Of a DNA stretch of 64,000 nt, positions 23,349-32,205 are shown piece by piece. Source of the stretch: Kiloniella majae. Lineage in GTDB: Bacteria > Pseudomonadota > Alphaproteobacteria > Kiloniellales > Kiloniellaceae. The translations under genes and the position numbers were made by a program. How positions within the stretch are numbered: the stretch's first letter is position 1; every line of letters starts with the position of its first letter. The DNA lies in assembly GCF_002118315.1 (NCBI RefSeq), contig NZ_MTSZ01000001.1:558001-622000 (forward strand). The letters are read 5' to 3'. A model generated the notes under the pieces. It made no database searches. It was given only the letters and a program-made list of their open reading frames with translations, and had not been told where the DNA came from.

Positions 23349-23376
23349 AAAAGAGGAAGCCATCGCTTCCTCTTTT
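23349..23376 (+). terminator. Rho-independent terminator after the YceI gene
   Basis: A 12-bp perfect stem (AAAAGAGGAAGC / GCTTCCTCTTTT) with a 4-base loop CATC, starting 40 bases after the stop. The A-rich left and T-rich right flanks make it potentially active in both directions. Confidence 0.9.
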
Positions 23377-23489
23377 CTATTTTCAGATCAGCTTTTAATT
23401 TTTGAATGAAATCAAAAACCTAAATCAAATTTCAGCGCCTGATTTCATTCCAAAAATTCCGCTATTTATTATCAAAATATGAAAGAAAC

Positions 23490-23540
23490 TTGACAATCTA
23501 AATTGGTCTGACCATTATTTAAACCCAAATGGTCAGACCA
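23490..23540 (+). promoter_or_regulatory. GntR-gene promoter with two FadR-type operators
   Basis: A -35 box TTGACA (23490-23495) and a -10-like CATTAT (23513-23518) are 17 bases apart. TGGTCTGACCA at 23504-23514 lies between them and TGGTCAGACCA at 23530-23540 lies just past the expected transcription start. Both fit the TnGTnnnACnA consensus known for FadR-subfamily GntR repressors. The layout implies tight autorepression of the downstream operon. Confidence 0.85.
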
Positions 23541-23558
23541 ATTTTAATGGAGCGGATT

Positions 23559-24278
23559 TTGTCCCCTAGCGTTACCCCCCATACAGAACAAGATCCCAAA
23601 ATATCGCGGACCCATGACGCCCGGATACTGGATGATCTGGCCCAGCTAATCGCAGACGAGCACATAAAACCGGGGGATAAGCTACCGCCTGAGCGAACAC
23701 TGACAGCCCGCTTAGGTGTTGGCCGCTCGACCATACGCGAAGCTCTCACACGGTGGGAAGCCCTCGGCATGGTCGAGCGGCGTCAAGGCAGCGGTACGTA
23801 CTTGATCACGCCTATTGAACCCACCTCTCCCCATGTTCCTATTGCTCTAAAAGTCGAGGCTGAAAGCCTGATCAGAACCATCGAAGTTCGTAAGGTTCTT
23901 GAGTGCGAAGCAATCGCCCTTGCCGCAGTCAATCGAACCGAAAAACAAATGGACGAAATTCGAAACTGTTGGCAAACCCTGAAAGATGCCCACGAAAAAT
24001 TCGGCCCATCCCATGACGAAGACGTCGAATTCCACAGCGCCATAATGCGGGCCAGTGGCAACCCACTCTTCAATCAGATTGTTAACCAATTACAAGAAGC
24101 AATGCGGGTAGTTTACACCCGAAAACCACTCGGCAATGAACATATCGGGGACACGTCTTTCCCTCTTCATTACGACCTGTTGCTTGCGTTGGAAGCCAAA
24201 GATCCCGACGCAGCGCGCGAGACAATCAAGGATATTATTGAGATCACTGAAAACGAAGTCAGAGAGTTTTTGAAATGA
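23559..24278 (+). CDS. GntR family regulator, FadR subfamily (FCD domain)
   Basis: About 240 residues. The winged helix-turn-helix is near the N-terminus (DKLPPERTLTARLGVGRSTIREALTRWEALGMVERRQGSGTYL); the all-helical FCD ligand domain follows, with metal-ligand type residues in DVEFHSAIMRASGNPLF and HYDLLLALEAKDPDAA. I prefer the TTG at 23559, which has GGAG six bases upstream; the ATGs at 23529 and 23547 lie inside or right after an operator and lack a ribosome site. Its last codons overlap the PLP gene by ATGA. It probably represses the operon that follows. Confidence 0.85.
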   Translation: MSPSVTPHTEQDPKISRTHDARILDDLAQLIADEHIKPGDKLPPERTLTARLGVGRSTIREALTRWEALGMVERRQGSGTYLITPIEPTSPHVPIALKVEAESLIRTIEVRKVLECEAIALAAVNRTEKQMDEIRNCWQTLKDAHEKFGPSHDEDVEFHSAIMRASGNPLFNQIVNQLQEAMRVVYTRKPLGNEHIGDTSFPLHYDLLLALEAKDPDAARETIKDIIEITENEVREFLK

Positions 24279-25534
24279 ACGAGAAAATCAATCAAAACTC
24301 TTTGGCTAAACCCACGGTAAGTGAAAACGATTTACCTGATCACCACGCTTTGGCTGGCAAGCATTCACCTGAAAACTCTGCGGATTTTATGCCTGACACG
24401 TTGTTAGCACATGATCCCGCATGGGCCGATAACGCAATGGTTCCCCCTATCGTCCAAAGCAGCCTTTTTACCTTTAAAAACTACAATGAAATGGTTGCTC
24501 GTTTCAAAGGTGAAAGTGACAGCAATATCTATTCGCGCATATCAAACCCGACCGTCAGGGCGTTTGAAGAGAAAATGGCCCTGATGGAAAAGGGGGACGA
24601 GGCTTTGGCTTTCGCCAGTGGGATGGCCGCAATTTCAGCCGCCGTCCTTGCCCACGTTCAGACTGGCGACCGTATTTTGTGTGTGCGCCATGTTTACCCC
24701 GATGCCTATCGCTTGTTTCAAGGTTTCATGCCCCGTTACGGGGTTCATACCGATTATGTTGACGGCACTGATTTAGCAGCAATCGAGGCCAAGTTGTCAG
24801 GTGCAAAGATCTTGTATCTGGAAAACCCGACAACCATGACCTTTGAAACACAGGATTTGGCCGCAATCGCCAAACTGGCCAAGGCCTATGGCGTCATAAC
24901 GATTATAGATAATTCCTACGCAACCCCGATCAACCAGACGCCCTTGACCCATGGTATTGATATTGTTGTTCATTCCGCATCAAAATATATCTCAGGTCAC
25001 AGCGATACTGTTGCCGGGGTACTGGTCGCCAATTCAAAAATCATAGAACATATTCGTAGTGTGGTCGTGCCCTATATGGGCGGCAAACTCGGCCCCTTTG
25101 AAGCCTGGTTACTTTTGCGAGGCATGCGTACCCTTTCGATCCGCATGGCCAGACATGCGCAAAGTGCCCAGATTTTAATCGATGATCTAAAATCACACCC
25201 CGCGATCACCAAAGTACTAACCGCGAACTATGAACAAAGTGCCAGCCTCAAAGCCACGTCTGGCCTATTTTCCATAGATCTGGACCCACAGATTAATATT
25301 CCTCGTTTTGTCGATAACCTGAAACTGTTTCATCTGGGCGTTAGCTGGGGCGGGCACGAAAGCCTCGTCATCCCCGCAAAGGCATCTTTGGAACAGGCAG
25401 GCACACATACGTCAATGCGAGATTTCGGTATCCCCGAGACCATGGTTCGTTTGAACATTGGTCTCGAGGATGTGCAAGACCTGAAAGCAGATCTTCACTC
25501 TGCTCTCAAACTGGCGGACGAGAGAAAATTGTAA
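24275..25534 (+). CDS. PLP-dependent Cys/Met metabolism enzyme (gamma-lyase/synthase family)
   Basis: A 419-residue fold-type I PLP enzyme of the cystathionine gamma-synthase / methionine gamma-lyase family. Visible: the YSRISNPTVRAFEEKMALMEKG motif, the cofactor loop FASGMAAISA, the aspartate DNSYATP, and the Schiff-base lysine K237 in HSASKYISGHSD. Family members eliminate or exchange gamma-substituents of homoserine derivatives or methionine. An extended N-terminus of about 45 residues precedes the core. It is translationally coupled to the GntR repressor and followed by an ABC importer, so its substrate is probably imported. Confidence 0.9.
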   Translation: MNEKINQNSLAKPTVSENDLPDHHALAGKHSPENSADFMPDTLLAHDPAWADNAMVPPIVQSSLFTFKNYNEMVARFKGESDSNIYSRISNPTVRAFEEKMALMEKGDEALAFASGMAAISAAVLAHVQTGDRILCVRHVYPDAYRLFQGFMPRYGVHTDYVDGTDLAAIEAKLSGAKILYLENPTTMTFETQDLAAIAKLAKAYGVITIIDNSYATPINQTPLTHGIDIVVHSASKYISGHSDTVAGVLVANSKIIEHIRSVVVPYMGGKLGPFEAWLLLRGMRTLSIRMARHAQSAQILIDDLKSHPAITKVLTANYEQSASLKATSGLFSIDLDPQINIPRFVDNLKLFHLGVSWGGHESLVIPAKASLEQAGTHTSMRDFGIPETMVRLNIGLEDVQDLKADLHSALKLADERKL

Positions 25535-25573
25535 GAACCCCGCCACCGTCGCCTTAACAACAGGGAGTCTAAT

Positions 25574-26839
25574 ATGAAAAAAATAATAAATGCAATGGTT
25601 CTGGGCGTTACCGTGTTATCTGGTTCGGCCTATGCTGATACCACCTTGAACCTTGTCGAAGTTATCACAAGTCCAAAACGGACAGAGCTTCTCAAACAAC
25701 AGGTTGCGGCCTTTGAAGCTGCGAACCCCGGCACAACAGTTGAAATAACGTCTCTTCCTTGGGGGCAAGCCTTTGAAAAGCTGGCAACGATGGTCAGTTC
25801 TGGTCAGGCACCAGATGTTGTTGAAATGCCCGATAAATGGATGGGTGTTTATGGCAACGCCAATCAATTGGAAAACTTGGAAAGTTATTACAAAGACTGG
25901 GATCACGCCGCGACATTATCAGACAAAGCACAAAACATGGGGCGTCTTGTTGGTGGTGATCTTTATCAGATCCCTTATGGTTTTTACCTGCGCGCGATGT
26001 TCTACAACAAAACACTTTTTAAACAAGCTGGCATAGAACAGACACCTCATACAATTGAAGAATTCAAAGAAGCAGCCCGTAAAGTATCCGAGCTTGATGG
26101 CAAATACGGCTATTGCTTGCGGGGCAGCAAAGGCGGCCACGGCGGCTGGTTGATGTTCTCTTCCATTATGAACGGTTCTGCAGATTTCTTTGACAGCAAC
26201 GGAAAAAGCACCATCGACAGCGAAGGCTCTAAACAAGGTCTTTCCCTGCTAGTTGATATCTATAAAAACGGCTGGGCCCCGAAAGACAGTGTGAACTGGG
26301 GTTTCAATGAAATTGTCGCAGGTTTCTATTCCAACACCTGTGCCATGCTTGATCAGGATCCCGATGCTCTTATTGCCATCGCGGATAAAATGTCCTCGGA
26401 GGAATTTGGCGTTATCCCAATGCCTGTTGGTCCCAGTGGCAAGTCCTACCCCGTTATCGGTTTTGCTGGCTGGTCCATGTTCTCTAGCTCGGAAAACAAG
26501 GATCAATCCTGGAAGCTTATTTCCCATCTGACCAAGCCGGAAAGCAATGTTGACTGGGCACAGTTTGTCGGCGTCATTCCTGTGCACAAAGGGGCCGAGC
26601 AAGATCAGCACTTTTCAAGCGAACAGTTTGCCGGTTGGTTTGAAGAGCTGAACAAACCTGAATATGAACCACTGGTCTTCCCCCATCATCTGAAACAGTT
26701 TGGTTACTTTGCTGACGTCAAACTGATCGAAGGCGGTCAGGAACTGTTGCTCGGCACCCGCTCTGTCGACGAAGTCGCCGCAGAATGGAGTGAATACCTG
26801 ACTGAAGCACAGACTGAATGGTTGGAAAACAAGAAATAA
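25574..26839 (+). CDS. ABC transporter substrate-binding protein, family 1 (sugar type)
   Basis: A 421-residue periplasmic binding protein with a signal peptide (residues 1-21, ending SAYAD). The mature part has the family-1 signatures TLNLVEVITSPKRTELLKQQVAAFEAANPGTTVEI, DVVEMPDKWM and YGFYLRAMFYNKTLFKQAGI. It belongs to the group that usually binds sugars, oligosaccharides or glycerol-3-phosphate. It lies 39 bases after the PLP enzyme. The start of the next gene overlaps its stop (TAATG). The unusual neighbour makes a non-sugar ligand possible. Confidence 0.93.
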   Translation: MKKIINAMVLGVTVLSGSAYADTTLNLVEVITSPKRTELLKQQVAAFEAANPGTTVEITSLPWGQAFEKLATMVSSGQAPDVVEMPDKWMGVYGNANQLENLESYYKDWDHAATLSDKAQNMGRLVGGDLYQIPYGFYLRAMFYNKTLFKQAGIEQTPHTIEEFKEAARKVSELDGKYGYCLRGSKGGHGGWLMFSSIMNGSADFFDSNGKSTIDSEGSKQGLSLLVDIYKNGWAPKDSVNWGFNEIVAGFYSNTCAMLDQDPDALIAIADKMSSEEFGVIPMPVGPSGKSYPVIGFAGWSMFSSSENKDQSWKLISHLTKPESNVDWAQFVGVIPVHKGAEQDQHFSSEQFAGWFEELNKPEYEPLVFPHHLKQFGYFADVKLIEGGQELLLGTRSVDEVAAEWSEYLTEAQTEWLENKK

Positions 26840-27801
26840 TGTCCAGCTCCGCTTCTACATCAGGCCCGGTGATCTCATCGGGCCTGACACCCCCACCAAC
26901 TACGCATAGAAAAAGATCCTTCAAACGTCTGGCGGAGCCCTATTTCTATCTTAGTCCAGCCCTTATGCTCTTGGCGCTGGTGATGATCCTGCCGCTTGTG
27001 GTTGGTCTTTCCTATGCCTATCAAAATATCGAACTGCTGAATCCCTTTGATCGCGGCTGGGTTGGCTTCAAACACTTCATCGCGCTGGAAAGTGATCGCG
27101 TTTTCTGGTTAGCGTTGAAAAATACCTTTGTCTGGACTTTCGGATCACTTGGGTTGCAATTCATTTTTGGCCTTGGTCTGGCACTGTTACTTAATCAGGC
27201 ATTCTATGGACGCAAGTTGATCCAGGCACTGGTACTTCTGCCATGGGCGGTACCAACGTTCCTTTCCGGTTTGAACTGGGCATGGCTGTTCAACCCGGTT
27301 ATCAGCCCAATCCCACATTGGCTGGCCGCTCTCGGCATTCTGAACGAACCCTATAACATTCTTGCCGATCCTGAATTGGCAATCATCGGACCTATCGTTG
27401 CAAACGTCTGGTTTGGTATTCCCTTTTTTGCCATTACCCTTATGGCGGGGCTTCAATCTATCCCAAAAGACCTGTACGAGGCCGCCGTCATTGATGGCGC
27501 AACGCTGTGGCAGCAATTCACACGTATAACCCTGCCCCTGCTTGCCCCCATTATTGCCATTACCCTTTTGCTCAGGACCGTATGGATTGCCAATTTTGCC
27601 GATCTTATTGTGGTCATGACAAATGGCGGCCCCGCAAATTCCAGCCAGACCATAGCCTCTTATATTTTCTCAACAGCCTACAAGAAACTGGATTTTGGCT
27701 ATGCCTCTGCTGTTGCAACGGTATTGCTTTTACTGCTGATCATCTATGCCGCACTTCTGTTTGGTATGCGGAAAAAGCTTCTGGAAAATTCAGGTAACTA
27801 G
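26839..27801 (+). CDS. ABC transporter permease, sugar type (first)
   Basis: About 320 residues with six predicted helices. The EAA loop that docks to the ATPase is clear: IPKDLYEAAVIDGATLWQQFTRITLPLLAP. The start at ATG 26839 shares one base with the stop of the binding-protein gene; a longer in-frame start at 26818 would overlap that gene. It follows the MalF/UgpA-type order (binding protein, permease, permease, ATPase). Confidence 0.93.
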   Translation: MSSSASTSGPVISSGLTPPPTTHRKRSFKRLAEPYFYLSPALMLLALVMILPLVVGLSYAYQNIELLNPFDRGWVGFKHFIALESDRVFWLALKNTFVWTFGSLGLQFIFGLGLALLLNQAFYGRKLIQALVLLPWAVPTFLSGLNWAWLFNPVISPIPHWLAALGILNEPYNILADPELAIIGPIVANVWFGIPFFAITLMAGLQSIPKDLYEAAVIDGATLWQQFTRITLPLLAPIIAITLLLRTVWIANFADLIVVMTNGGPANSSQTIASYIFSTAYKKLDFGYASAVATVLLLLLIIYAALLFGMRKKLLENSGN

Positions 27802-27812
27802 GAACCGGGTAC

Positions 27813-28655
27813 ATGACTGCTTACACAATCAACAGAAGACTTTGGTCAACCGGACGTTATCTGGCCCTGTCACTATACGTCCTCTTTGCCCTCTTCCCGC
27901 TTTTTTGGTTGTTCAGAGTTTCGATATCACCAACAAAACTGCTCTACACCGAGGGTACATCCTTGTGGCCGTCAATGGTTACAATTGAAAACTATCTGAT
28001 TGTCTTGCAAGACACATCCTTTCCGACCTATTTCCTCAATAGCGTCACGGTTTCCTTGGGAACAGCCCTGTGCACAACCTTGATTGCCTCTGCAGCAGGA
28101 TACGCCTTTTCCCGTTTCAAGTTCAAAGGCAAAGCTATTATCGCCTTTTTGCTTTTGCTCACCCAGATGTTTCCGCTGGTGATGGTCATCGCCCCGATCT
28201 ATCGCCTGATGCAGCCCTTGGGGCTGACCGATAGCCTGACAGGATTGATTGTCGTATACACTGCTTTTAATACGCCTTTTGCGACCTTCCTGATGCAGTC
28301 ATTTTTTGATGCTGTTCCCAAAGATCTTGAAGATGCCGCCATGATTGATGGCTGTACCCGTTTCCAGGCATTGATCAGGATCGTTTTACCCCTGACCCTG
28401 CCCGGTATGATGGCAACCCTCGGCTTTATCTTTACCGCTGCGTGGAGCGAATTGCTCTTTGCCCTGATGCTGATCAATAGCGAAAGCCAGGTTACCTTCC
28501 CTGTCGGGTTGCTCAATTTTATCTCAAAGTTCTCTGTGGACTGGGGACAAATGATGGCCGCTGGCTTTCTGGCCCTTATACCAGCCTGTATTTTCTTTGC
28601 TCTCATTCAAAAATACCTCGTCACAGGCATGACTGCCGGCGCAGTCAAAGGTTAA
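27813..28655 (+). CDS. ABC transporter permease, sugar type (second)
   Basis: A 280-residue MalG/UgpE-type permease. Six hydrophobic helices are visible and the EAA loop VPKDLEDAAMIDGCTRFQALIRIVLPLTLPG is intact. Eleven bases separate it from the first permease, and 23 bases with an AGGAG site from the ATPase. Together with its partner it forms the membrane channel of a class-I importer. Confidence 0.94.
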   Translation: MTAYTINRRLWSTGRYLALSLYVLFALFPLFWLFRVSISPTKLLYTEGTSLWPSMVTIENYLIVLQDTSFPTYFLNSVTVSLGTALCTTLIASAAGYAFSRFKFKGKAIIAFLLLLTQMFPLVMVIAPIYRLMQPLGLTDSLTGLIVVYTAFNTPFATFLMQSFFDAVPKDLEDAAMIDGCTRFQALIRIVLPLTLPGMMATLGFIFTAAWSELLFALMLINSESQVTFPVGLLNFISKFSVDWGQMMAAGFLALIPACIFFALIQKYLVTGMTAGAVKG

Positions 28656-28678
28656 AACATTTAACAGGAGTACCGATA

Positions 28679-29758
28679 ATGTCGGCAGTTACATTAAATA
28701 ACTTTAGCAAGTCCTATGGCAAAATGTCTGTCTTGTCCGGTATTGATCTGACCATTAACAGCGGCGAGTTCATTGCTTTGGTCGGGCCATCGGGCTGTGG
28801 TAAATCCACCCTGTTACGGATGATCGCCGGATTGGAAGAAATTACAGGCGGCAATATAGAAATCGGGGATAGAACAGTTACCGACCTTGCCCCAAAAGAT
28901 CGTAACATAGCCATGGTCTTTCAATCTTACGCGCTCTACCCACACCTGAGCGTACGCTCAAACATGGGCTTTAGCCTAAAGCTCAGAAAGGTTGCCACTG
29001 AAAAGATCACGTCTGCGATCAATAGTGCATCGACAATGCTTGGTCTGGATCAGCTTCTTGAACGCCTTCCAAAAGCATTGTCCGGTGGGCAACGCCAGCG
29101 TGTTGCCATGGGGCGGGCAATCGTCCGACGTCCCGATGTGTTTTTGTTTGACGAGCCCCTGTCTAATCTGGATGCAAAACTTCGGGTGCAAATGCGCTCG
29201 GAAATCAAAAGCCTTCATCAGGATATAAAAACCACGTCGATCTACGTTACTCATGATCAGATCGAAGCCATGACCATGGCCGATCGCATTGTTGTTATGA
29301 ACAAAGGTAATATAGAACAGGCGGGCGCCCCGCTAGATATCTATGACAGGCCAGAAAGTAAATTTGTTGCCGGGTTCATCGGCTCCCCCGCCATGAATTT
29401 TTTCACCGCAGAATACAAACCGAATGGTTCGGATGGTTTCATTAATATCAACGATGAGTGCACCATCCCCCTTCCCAAGCTCAGGACCTTACAACAAGGA
29501 ACTGTAGAATGCGGCATCAGGCCGGAACACCTGAGCCTGTCAAAAGAAAAGAAAACGGGTCATAGCATAAAGGTCACCGTTGATGTGGTCGAGCCAACAG
29601 GCTTGGCAACGATCGTGTATCTAAGCTTTGGCGATCAGAAAATATGTTTTTATACCAGCGATCGCCCTGATATAGGACCGGGAGATACAGTCTATCTTCA
29701 GCTTTCGGAAAACAAGTTGCATCTATTCGATGTAAATACCGGCAAAAGACTGAATTAA
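28679..29758 (+). CDS. ABC transporter ATP-binding protein, MalK/UgpC type
   Basis: A 359-residue ATPase with all motifs in order: Walker A GPSGCGKST, Q-loop VFQSYALYPH, signature LSGGQRQR, Walker B DVFLFDEPLSNLD, and switch histidine YVTHD. The extra C-terminal domain (GCIRPEHLS-like strand GIRPEHLSLS) is the regulatory OB fold of the MalK group. It completes a full importer (binding protein, two permeases, ATPase). Confidence 0.96.
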   Translation: MSAVTLNNFSKSYGKMSVLSGIDLTINSGEFIALVGPSGCGKSTLLRMIAGLEEITGGNIEIGDRTVTDLAPKDRNIAMVFQSYALYPHLSVRSNMGFSLKLRKVATEKITSAINSASTMLGLDQLLERLPKALSGGQRQRVAMGRAIVRRPDVFLFDEPLSNLDAKLRVQMRSEIKSLHQDIKTTSIYVTHDQIEAMTMADRIVVMNKGNIEQAGAPLDIYDRPESKFVAGFIGSPAMNFFTAEYKPNGSDGFININDECTIPLPKLRTLQQGTVECGIRPEHLSLSKEKKTGHSIKVTVDVVEPTGLATIVYLSFGDQKICFYTSDRPDIGPGDTVYLQLSENKLHLFDVNTGKRLN

Positions 29759-29766
29759 CCTTCCTT

Positions 29767-29792
29767 TACCCAGTTAAGGTACCCAGTTGAGG
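29767..29792 (+). repeat. Tandem 13-base direct repeat before the nitronate-monooxygenase-like gene
   Basis: TACCCAGTTAAGG is followed directly by TACCCAGTTGAGG, 12 of 13 bases identical. It lies just after the ATPase stop. It could be a binding site or a chance slip duplication. Confidence 0.4.
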
Positions 29793-29880
29793 TTGTGCTT
29801 GAATTATTTTTTGCACAGTTTCTTTTCTTTCACTACCGTAGCTTTGACAATATTGGAAACCAGATGCAGAAGCGATAGAA

Positions 29881-30885
29881 ATGGCCTCGCAACCTAACAC
29901 ACGTCCAAAGATCAGAACCCGGTTGACCGACTTACTTGGCATTGAACACCCCATTCTTTGTGGCGGGTTGATGCATTTGGCTGATGCGAACTATGTTGCG
30001 GCTGTGGTAAATGCCGGGACCATGGGGTTTATTTCTGCATTGACCTTTCCCGACCCCAAACAGCTTCAGGACGAAATCCAGAAATGCCGGGATCTCTCCG
30101 GCGGTAAATCCTTCGGGGTAAACCTCTATATATCTCCCCGACAGGACGCCAATGACCGACTGGAAAAACTGCTGACAGTGGTACGGGATGAAAACGTTGC
30201 GGTGGTCGAAACGGCTGGCGGCAATCCCGGCCCTATCATCCCCTTCATGAAAGAAGCCGGGATCAAAGTCATTCATAAAGTTCCGGCCGTTCGCTTTGCC
30301 CTTTCTGCTGAACGTGCAGGTGTCGATGCAATCAGTCTGGTCGGGGCTGAGTGTGGTGGGCACCCCGGCTACATGATGGTCGGGTCAATGGTTCAAGCTG
30401 CTGACGGGCCGCAAAAACTATCTGTTCCCGTCATTCTCGGCGGTGGCATTGGTCACGGCAGTCAGCTAACAGCGGCCCTTGCCATGGGATGCGACGGCAT
30501 TCTGATGGGGACCCGGATGCTGGTTTCCAGTGAGCTCCAAGCCCACAAAGACTATAAACAGCGCGTAGCCGAAGGCACCGGATTGGACAGCATCGTGGTT
30601 CAAAGCAAATTGAAGAACCACCACCGGGTTCTGGATAATCAAACAGCACAGGCAGTCCTCGCGCTGGAAAATCAGGGCAAGGAAACTTACGAAGATTACA
30701 CGCATCTGCTCAATGGCAAGCTCGCAAAAGAAGCCTACACATCCGGCAATACGGATCAGGGATTACTCGATTACGGACAAAGTGCCTGTTTTGCCAATGC
30801 CATTGAGTCCGTAGAGACAATTATCACCCAATTTATGGATGAAGCATTCACTGCCAAGGGCCGGATATTAAAGCTAGATTTTTAG
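29881..30885 (+). CDS. Nitronate monooxygenase-like (2-nitropropane dioxygenase family) flavoprotein
   Basis: A 334-residue FMN TIM barrel. Typical parts are the GIEHPILCGGLMHLADANYVAAVVNAGTMGFIS start, VDAISLVGAECGGHPG, and the phosphate-binding PVILGGGIGHGSQLTAALAMGCDGILMGTRML. Members oxidise nitronates, but many act on other substrates such as enoyl-ACP. A 122-base gap with a tandem repeat separates it from the ABC operon, so co-transcription is likely but not certain. The start has only a weak ribosome site. Confidence 0.85.
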   Translation: MASQPNTRPKIRTRLTDLLGIEHPILCGGLMHLADANYVAAVVNAGTMGFISALTFPDPKQLQDEIQKCRDLSGGKSFGVNLYISPRQDANDRLEKLLTVVRDENVAVVETAGGNPGPIIPFMKEAGIKVIHKVPAVRFALSAERAGVDAISLVGAECGGHPGYMMVGSMVQAADGPQKLSVPVILGGGIGHGSQLTAALAMGCDGILMGTRMLVSSELQAHKDYKQRVAEGTGLDSIVVQSKLKNHHRVLDNQTAQAVLALENQGKETYEDYTHLLNGKLAKEAYTSGNTDQGLLDYGQSACFANAIESVETIITQFMDEAFTAKGRILKLDF

Positions 30886-31186: not shown

Positions 31187-31963
31187 CTAACTTTGTGGAA
31201 TAATCATATCCTGTTGAATAATTGCGTTGAGCTTCTTTAACAGATCTGGAGACAGACTGTTTTTACCCAACATGATATGCACAGGTCCCAACTCCACCTT
31301 GACGTTTTCATGGGGAATAACAACACCTTCCAGGCCATCGGCCTTAATCCGCGCTTTACCTGTTTCCTTATCAACAAGAAACCCATCTACACGATCACTG
31401 ATCAACATCTGGAAATTTTCACCACCTATCGCCTGAAAAACCCGGTCTTTAAATTTCGGATTTTCCATCAGCGTCAAATATTCTTCACCGTAATAGGCAT
31501 TCCGTGAGACACCCAGCCTAAAGGATGAGCCGATAATATCTTTCAAACTCGTAAAATGGTCAAAGTCGTGCTGGTTGGCCAGCATGAAAAGCCAGACGGT
31601 TTCATTTCGATACGGCGCACTAAAGTTGGCGTATTTACGGCGCTCTTCTGTATTGGACATGCCCAAAAGTACGTCCAAACGTCCCTCTTCCAACGCTTTC
31701 AATAAACGTGCCCACGGCTTGGAGACATATTTCAGATCACAACCCAAAGCGCCGAGATATTTTTCCGCAGCGCTGATATCAACCCCTACAGGTTGAGTAT
31801 CGTCACCGTTTTTGCCGACCATCTGATAGGGGGGCCAGTCAATCCACCCCACTGTAAGCTCTCCACAAGCCTCTTCGGCCTGTACAGACGACGCAAAAGT
31901 CAAGATTAAACCAGCTAAAACACCAGCAAAACCTCTTGCACCCAGCTTCTGCCCCCAAATCAT
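31187..31963 (-). CDS. Periplasmic solute-binding protein, SBP_bac_3 type
   Basis: A 258-residue exported binding protein: signal peptide to about residue 30 (ASSVQAEE), then GELTVGWIDWPPYQMVG, a conserved opening strand, and DVLLGMSNTEERRKYANFSAPYRNETVWLFM, the hinge region typical of the amino-acid-binding family. I start at ATG 31961-31963 after an AAGGGG site. No transporter genes are adjacent. Together with the next gene and the one at 66 it makes three lone binding proteins in this window. Confidence 0.85.
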   Translation of the reverse strand: MIWGQKLGARGFAGVLAGLILTFASSVQAEEACGELTVGWIDWPPYQMVGKNGDDTQPVGVDISAAEKYLGALGCDLKYVSKPWARLLKALEEGRLDVLLGMSNTEERRKYANFSAPYRNETVWLFMLANQHDFDHFTSLKDIIGSSFRLGVSRNAYYGEEYLTLMENPKFKDRVFQAIGGENFQMLISDRVDGFLVDKETGKARIKADGLEGVVIPHENVKVELGPVHIMLGKNSLSPDLLKKLNAIIQQDMIIPQS

Positions 31964-32205
31964 TTCACACCCCTTTTCCAAAGAAATTCGGCTATTCCTT
32001 TGAATACGTTACATTTTACAAGCATTAACAGTGATATTGCGCCCGGCAATACCTTGTGATCAAGTGTTTATGTTTTAGAGAAGTAGTTTTAAGAAGCAGT
32101 TAACCGAAGTGTCTCTTTTTATTAAAAAATTATGTAAATAAAACTATATCAATACTGTGATTTCAAAATCCCAGAGTTCAAGTTATACAACTCAAACTCT
32201 GGAGC

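Follow-up and report, generated by a model that had tools for sequence, protein, structure and literature searches.

A conserved, mobile gene cassette of Kiloniella majae pairs a VbsL-type PLP enzyme with a sugar-type importer and may serve the uptake and epimerization of an amino acid

What does a sugar-type ATP-binding cassette (ABC) importer carry when its genes are joined to that of a pyridoxal 5'-phosphate (PLP) enzyme with the cystathionine gamma-lyase (CGL) fold? The question is raised by a locus of Kiloniella majae (contig NZ_MTSZ01000001.1, assembly GCF_002118315.1), which we studied within a stretch of 64,000 nucleotides (positions 558,001 to 622,000), hereafter the window. An initial annotation had described a GntR/FCD regulator and a CGL-family enzyme coupled by ATGA, a MalEFGK-style importer and a nitronate monooxygenase (NMO)-like flavoprotein, and all seven open reading frames (ORFs) and their families were found again on the plus strand, spanning 23529-30885 of the window. 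The placement of the region at 23559-30885 holds for its end, whereas the GntR gene begins further upstream, at 23529 or 23547. The first six genes (23529-29758) are a real, conserved and mobile unit. As a tentative answer, given somewhat less than an even chance, we propose that this mobile uptake-and-processing cassette imports and epimerizes an amino acid whose side chain is large and polar. The genes are as follows:

23529..24278, plus strand: FCD-type GntR regulator, from the ORF and the families GntR and FCD; start at 23529 or 23547
24275..25534, plus strand: PLP enzyme of the PRK05968/VbsL family with the CGL fold, predicted epimerase or beta-eliminase, from NF004627, tree and residue signature
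25574..26839, plus strand: CUT1-type solute-binding protein (SBP_bac_1), in which DQDPDAL at 260-266 replaces the GPW motif
26818..27801, plus strand: MalF-type permease (BPD_transp_1); alternative start at 26839, where the binding-protein gene ends
27813..28655, plus strand: MalG-type permease (BPD_transp_1)
28679..29758, plus strand: MalK/UgpC-type ATPase (ABC_tran, OB_MalK and TOBE_2; NF008653 at 496 bits vs a cut-off of 432)
29881..30885, plus strand: NMO-family flavoprotein, above the Pfam NMO cut-off; a neighbor outside the cassette

The stop codon of the GntR gene overlaps the start codon of the PLP-enzyme gene in an ATGA at 24275-24278, and the enzyme matches Cys_Met_Meta_PP with 343.8 bits. 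The component set of a CUT1 importer is complete, comprising SBP_bac_1, two permeases and a MalK-type ATPase with an OB/TOBE tail.

The linkage of the first six genes is far above chance, and the gene-order conservation across alphaproteobacteria that the initial annotation had proposed to examine is borne out. Among 385 alphaproteobacterial genomes drawn evenly, the PRK05968 enzyme (E <= 1e-130) occurs in six and a close relative of the binding protein (E <= 1e-120) in the same six; in the window, as in the five other genomes, one cassette encodes both. Among 51 fetched loci whose binding protein is of this kind (type I; window not counted), 50 keep the order GntR-enzyme-binding protein-MalF-MalG-MalK on one strand, a count that measures constancy, not frequency, because these loci were fetched by a match to the binding protein or the enzyme. 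The 51st, from Rhizobium tumorigenes (L150), has inverted importer genes and one gene between the importer and the regulator-enzyme pair. This constant linkage, kept even in the rearranged copy, suggests a functional pairing that moves between genomes. Outside the 51 stand further loci fetched by the enzyme: L039 and L040, with an importer of another type; L059 and L149, which are siderophore loci; and L117, L124, L127, L130 and L131. A phylum scan on the enzyme side alone located PRK05968 at 27 places in 24 of 398 genomes; 15 of the 20 places fetched are cassettes, three adjoin siderophore-type genes (L117, L124, L127), one lies opposite an importer of a second type, described below as type II (L130), and one has no query gene nearby (L131). 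Amino-acid-type ABC importers lie close to the cassettes of L054, L042, L058 and L074, in L042 together with a D-serine-dehydratase-like gene.

The cassette is also carried by plasmids: at E <= 1e-40 a search of 72,556 plasmid records found the binding protein in 196 (Rhizobium 151, Pantoea 12, Sinorhizobium 7, Phyllobacterium 6, Shinella 5, roseobacters and others). In Rhizobium johnstonii 3841 the copy corresponds to RL_RS31585-31610, about 3 kb from sulfate-transport genes. Since the SulT gene at this locus is given as pRL110374 in a passage of PMC6421345, the older names of the cassette genes presumably lie near pRL11036x, a prefix of which no mention was found in the literature searched.

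Which reaction the enzyme catalyzes was approached through its family placement. Among the best 25 of 46 NCBIfam models it passes PRK05968 (NF004627) alone, with 533.8 bits vs a cut-off of 508; the subfamily is named "hypothetical protein" in NCBIfam, and plasmid records mostly say "PLP-dependent transferase". It stays below the cut-offs for methionine gamma-lyase (TIGR01328, 316.4 vs 549.7 bits), O-succinylhomoserine sulfhydrylase (TIGR01325, 271.5 vs 510), cystathionine beta-lyase (TIGR01324, 239.9 vs 365.9), the archaeal bifunctional L-alanine/L-glutamate racemase (NF041088, 347.7 vs 629) and, within the same best 25 of 46, the cystathionine gamma-synthase models. Separate enzymes of the genome pass the models for cystathionine beta-lyase, methionine gamma-lyase and the sulfhydrylases of O-acetylhomoserine and O-succinylhomoserine. 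Maximum-likelihood trees unite the PRK05968 rows in a single clade (support 97/95 in the first tree and 99/99 in the second), which falls on the side of cystathionine beta-lyase in both trees and of the archaeal racemase in the second; methionine gamma-lyase, cystathionine gamma-synthase and the sulfhydrylases are split from that side in both (100/98 and 100/99), and the window enzyme stands on a branch apart from the genome's own O-succinylhomoserine sulfhydrylase. Several outside branches are long, so that their joins may be false.

These placements bear on the proposal that the enzyme is a gamma-lyase degrading an imported gamma-substituted or sulfur amino acid of the homoserine, methionine or canavanine type. 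The fold family itself and the best single-sequence matches in the PDB, which are methionine gamma-lyases, speak for it. It is nevertheless opposed by the scores against TIGR01328 and TIGR01325 and the tree position, and by an active-site difference: the genome, already provided with a passing methionine gamma-lyase, has in that enzyme a Cys, which we take to be Cys116, where the cassette enzyme has Asp143. We therefore do not favor a sulfur-amino-acid gamma-lyase and consider this chemistry, which the initial annotation had assumed, highly improbable; the sole described close relative that we found is VbsL. A B3/4 editing gene next to the lyase marks canavanine gamma-lyase loci according to a passage of PMC10018355; none appears among the product names within about 9 kb of the annotated cassettes, where no family search was made.

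The relationship to VbsL is the main guide to the predicted reaction. In the part of PMC12971057 consulted, which credits Heemstra et al. 2009, VbsL is called "the characteristic acyl-hydroxyornithine epimerase" of vicibactin synthesis. The vicibactin genes of R. leguminosarum are ordered rpoI-vbsLDAGSO in a passage of PMC6421345, and an excerpt of PMC9855851 mentions VbsL as part of the R. etli proteome. On the R. etli plasmid p42f we found a locus with the order sigma factor, PLP enzyme, MATE, GNAT, MbtH, non-ribosomal peptide synthetase (NRPS) and N-monooxygenase, and we take its PLP enzyme to be VbsL because this order fits rpoI-vbsLDAGSO. The R. etli enzyme scores 660.1 bits against NF004627 and thus belongs to the same subfamily as the window enzyme. 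Together with three enzymes of similar context it joins seven cassette enzymes in an 11-row group (99/98), which nests in a 56-row clade (99/99) of the tree of 63 rows; its identity reaches 59% with the closest enzymes from cassettes and is 47% with the window enzyme. This nesting hints that the vicibactin epimerase may derive from an enzyme of a catabolic cassette, or that the descent ran the other way. To our knowledge, the activity of a PRK05968/VbsL-type enzyme is known for VbsL only.

A shared residue signature supports the grouping. Asp143 is present in 59 of 59 enzymes (51 from cassettes, window included, five of VbsL context and three of type II) and in none of seven outside enzymes; its site holds Cys in methionine gamma-lyase, Pro in cystathionine beta-lyase, Gly in cystathionine gamma-synthase and Trp in the racemase. 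Asp143, Ser236, Leu325 and Phe384 each occur in at least 58 of the 59 and in none of the seven. Lys271 is found in 48 of 49 cassette enzymes, with Arg in the remaining one and also in one enzyme of VbsL context. By these comparisons the enzyme should be placed with VbsL, and the label of a sulfur lyase should be dropped. The window enzyme, encoded between a regulator and an importer, lacks the surroundings that mark a vicibactin locus (NRPS, N-hydroxylase, acyltransferase and MATE exporter around the epimerase). VbsL-like enzymes accompanied by MATE-type exporters were also seen in hydroxamate-siderophore-like loci of other alphaproteobacteria (L149:8319-15129, on Pseudosulfitobacter p6, and L127:3052-10937).

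What the importer carries is suggested by its binding protein. In phmmer searches against solved structures the top match is the sugar-binding protein 3uor (8e-27), and scores against three listed models of solute-binding proteins are 37-41 bits vs cut-offs of 291-700. In the alignment with E. coli MalE, the segment DQDPDAL (260-266) falls on NGPWAW, a loop that presumably carries the sugar-stacking Trp, and the Trp is replaced by Asp264. The segment is kept in at least 33 of 34 orthologues, and R183 and D260-D264 are invariant in 24 of 24 sequences. Since the stacking Trp is replaced by an Asp, the ligand is read as charged or zwitterionic rather than as an oligosaccharide; the loss of GPW makes a cargo with an amino-acid part plausible. 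That portion of the initial suggestion is thus retained, whereas lysis of a gamma-substituted or sulfur amino acid is disfavored by the cut-offs, the trees and the kinship with VbsL. Statements about the pocket rest on sequence alignment, since a structure prediction from two sequences reached a mean pLDDT of only 43.6 and was left unused. C181 and C256 of the binding protein are conserved and possibly form a disulfide, and cysteines also lie near the two corresponding sites of UgpB.

A plain sugar or sugar-acid importer, with the PLP enzyme as an accessory on a side task, would be consistent with the CUT1 families of all importer parts and with the sugar genes beside some copies. We regard this as improbable, since enzyme and importer stay together in one order in 50 of 51 loci and, rearranged, in the 51st, and since a conserved acidic motif replaces GPW. 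Instead of an enzyme in an ordinary O-succinylhomoserine clade and an importer of a known sugar clade with no conserved linkage, the locus offers an enzyme in a separate clade, a binding protein without GPW and a conserved linkage.

Taken together, the loss of GPW and the relatives of the enzyme lead us to suggest, with moderate confidence, that an amino acid is the probable cargo, its side chain being large, polar and perhaps sugar-like. Among possible reactions epimerization appears most likely, with beta-elimination second. In the proposed sequence of events, the GntR/FCD repressor would sit on two palindromes over the promoter until the cargo or its product releases it, and the MalEFGK-type importer would take in the amino acid bearing the large polar side chain. 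The PRK05968 enzyme would then bind it as an external aldimine, with Lys237 as the PLP lysine by alignment, abstract the alpha proton and, as the kinship to VbsL suggests, re-protonate on the other face, so that the amino acid is epimerized; the product would pass into general amino-acid metabolism.

Several observations weigh against this proposal. We know of no activity for any cassette enzyme. All 51 cassette enzymes compared have Ser at position 234, where all five enzymes of VbsL context have Ala, and because this fixed difference lies three residues before the PLP lysine, the reaction could differ from that of VbsL. In favor of the proposal, a profile of the family has the L-Ala/L-Glu racemase 9iz5 as its best PDB match (E 1.9e-108); against it, the single-sequence search ranks methionine gamma-lyases above the racemase, whose chain matches the window enzyme and the genome's own methionine gamma-lyase with the same identity of 36%; it reaches at most 44% identity to any cassette enzyme. 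The importer lineage is of carbohydrate type, with CUT1 families for all parts. Finally, a few loci of roseobacters have genes for sugar handling after MalK, a finding that an epimerase of a plain amino acid leaves unexplained: an AGE-family epimerase gene lies downstream of the cassette in 4 of 51 loci (L044, L045, L056, L071), and in 3 of 51 (L045, L056, L073) the gene next to MalK is transketolase/E1-like. In L061 the same count met nothing closer than a distant relative (25%), encoded on the opposite strand, and a galactonate-dehydratase-like gene comes next in that locus.

These accessory genes, which only a minority of the loci have, point to a sugar-like component in the cargo and leave beta-elimination standing as a rival. 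Here the cargo would be an O- or S-glycosylated Ser, Thr or Cys, of which the importer binds the sugar and the PLP enzyme expels it, leaving a 2-oxo acid, ammonia and the free sugar with no need of a glycosidase. The enzyme groups with cystathionine beta-lyase and away from methionine gamma-lyase, cystathionine gamma-synthase and the sulfhydrylases, and its W358 is the equivalent of Trp340 of cystathionine beta-lyase; the AGE and transketolase-like genes follow MalK directly or in succession in five roseobacter-type loci; a class II aldolase gene and a DUF4147 gene stand beside the R. tumorigenes copy (L150); and the genome's own second PRK05968 enzyme directly precedes another sugar-type importer. 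However, VbsL, which is nested among the cassette enzymes, is an epimerase by the passage of PMC12971057 cited above, Tyr338 of cystathionine beta-lyase is Val in 34 of 34 enzymes compared, and the other 47 of the 51 loci have no AGE gene and the other 48 no adjoining transketolase. Beta-elimination is therefore held to be unlikely, and epimerization remains the preferred reaction.

The second PRK05968 enzyme belongs to what we term the type II module, which is not part of the main claim. In the K. majae genome it lies directly before a sugar-type importer on contig 1 at about 28.9-35.1 kb (L040:9873-16098), and the same module is found at L039:9798-16024, with a divergent arrangement in L130. 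In L040 and L039 the GntR gene stands at the end, and the binding protein, a member of a different subfamily, has kept a GDW motif; this importer is not close to that of the window. A transketolase-like gene about 9.5 kb from the genome's own type II enzyme is weak evidence because such genes are common (131 of 385 alphaproteobacterial genomes); another lies about 10 kb from the cassette in the genome G385. At about 2-10 kb from the type II module, the stretches L039:1852-7594 and L152:15072-19420 encode a transketolase/E1-like protein, an SHMT-family enzyme and a GcvA-like LysR regulator, as well as a small ORF that is AsnC/Lrp-like by eye.

The upstream region of the cassette contains candidate regulatory sites for the GntR protein:

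23490..23518, plus strand: promoter-like TTGACA-17-CATTAT with 10 of 12 matches, overlapped by operator 1
23504..23514, no strand: operator-like palindrome 1, TGGTCTGACCA, from a motif search
23530..23540, no strand: operator-like palindrome 2, TGGTCAGACCA, 26 bp downstream of palindrome 1

The promoter-like site is supported solely by its position, the region holding 10 such sites vs a shuffle mean of 10.3. The two palindromes cover the promoter-like stretch and the start of the GntR gene. Exact copies of TGGTCNGACCA occur twice in the 4.38 Mb genome, at these two palindromes only. A reversed control pattern is also found twice, and what distinguishes the pair is the shared place of its copies and their recurrence, both of them, upstream of the GntR gene in Kiloniella EL199. 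The pair was not found upstream of 32 other cassettes scanned, among which L058, L074 and L083 have single looser matches. The GntR regulon probably comprises mainly the cassette operon.

The boundaries of the unit were drawn from breaks in homology to Kiloniella genomes that lack the cassette:

23374..29879, no strand: inserted segment, left edge approximate

The left limit is the last homology of the left flank, just past the YceI gene, where BLASTN alignments break at 23373 (G005) and 23357 (G007) and a weak 27-base match extends to 23378 (G004); on the right, homology breaks at 29880, at the start of the NMO-like gene. The cassette enzyme is present at >80% identity in only two of nine Kiloniella genomes. 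Relatives of the flavoprotein, 73-100% identical, are present in eight of the nine, the ninth genome being 77% complete. Among five Kiloniella relatives fetched for the flavoprotein context (a sixth, G003, was left out), three (L144, L145, L146) have LysR, cytochrome b561, YceI and flavoprotein genes in the order of the window with no gene between the last two; two other ORFs separate YceI and flavoprotein in L147, and the flavoprotein gene lies elsewhere in L148. Outside the window, the flavoprotein is present in a single one of the 51 type I loci, which belongs to Kiloniella sp. EL199 (L029), the nearest named relative. The flavoprotein is thus an older neighbor of the insert and a bystander, and its membership in the pathway, as initially supposed, was rejected. 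Its best PDB matches are 2gjl (PA1024, 213.8 bits) and 6e2a (213.7 bits), which is named nitronate monooxygenase and which we take to be PA1024 too; the next chains bearing that name (4q4k and others) reach at most 58 bits. PA1024 is an NADH:quinone oxidoreductase according to a passage of PMC10033279. Downstream, on the minus strand, two ORFs resemble periplasmic binding proteins by eye: that at 31187-31981 of the window is kept beside the flavoprotein in five of six Kiloniella loci compared, and that at 32206-33126 in L146 and L029 only.

Each part of the cassette is of a known family; no description of a VbsL-type enzyme paired with an importer of sugar type was found in the literature searched (titles, abstract starts and selected passages). 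The cassette context gives a testable function to the PRK05968 subfamily, which is present on many rhizobial plasmids and in roseobacters. In a bolder and doubtful extension, the cassette would represent a widespread and mobile catabolism of polyhydroxylated amino acids or of conjugates between sugars and amino acids. Its importer of sugar type would be tightly paired with a PLP enzyme from the family of the siderophore epimerase, and this enzyme would either invert the alpha carbon or, without any glycosidase, release the sugar by beta-elimination. Should the cargo be a conjugate or a D-amino acid that plants or algae exude, the cassette would mark an unrecognized nutrient there.

Comparison with known systems places these features side by side. 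VbsL has the D143/S236/L325/F384 signature in common with the cassette enzyme; however, it is encoded in a siderophore locus with NRPS, N-hydroxylase and MATE exporter, whereas the window enzyme is encoded between a regulator and an importer. The archaeal L-Ala/L-Glu racemase shares W358 and differs in having Trp at 143 and Val at 271, where the cassette enzyme has Asp and Lys. Cystathionine beta-lyase MetC, which in E. coli is additionally annotated as an alanine racemase, resembles it in tree side and in the Ser339-Trp340 motif, but its Tyr338 and its Pro are replaced by Val and Asp143, the latter site being Cys in the genome's own methionine gamma-lyase. The importer shares all four Pfam components with MalEFGK and UgpBAEC; the GPW motif of MalE is replaced by DQDPDAL, and UgpB is without GPW as well. 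The Frl system of B. subtilis likewise uses a sugar-type importer for sugar-amino acid conjugates, but there the glycated amino acids taken up are processed by a kinase and a deglycase, and no PLP enzyme is known to take part.

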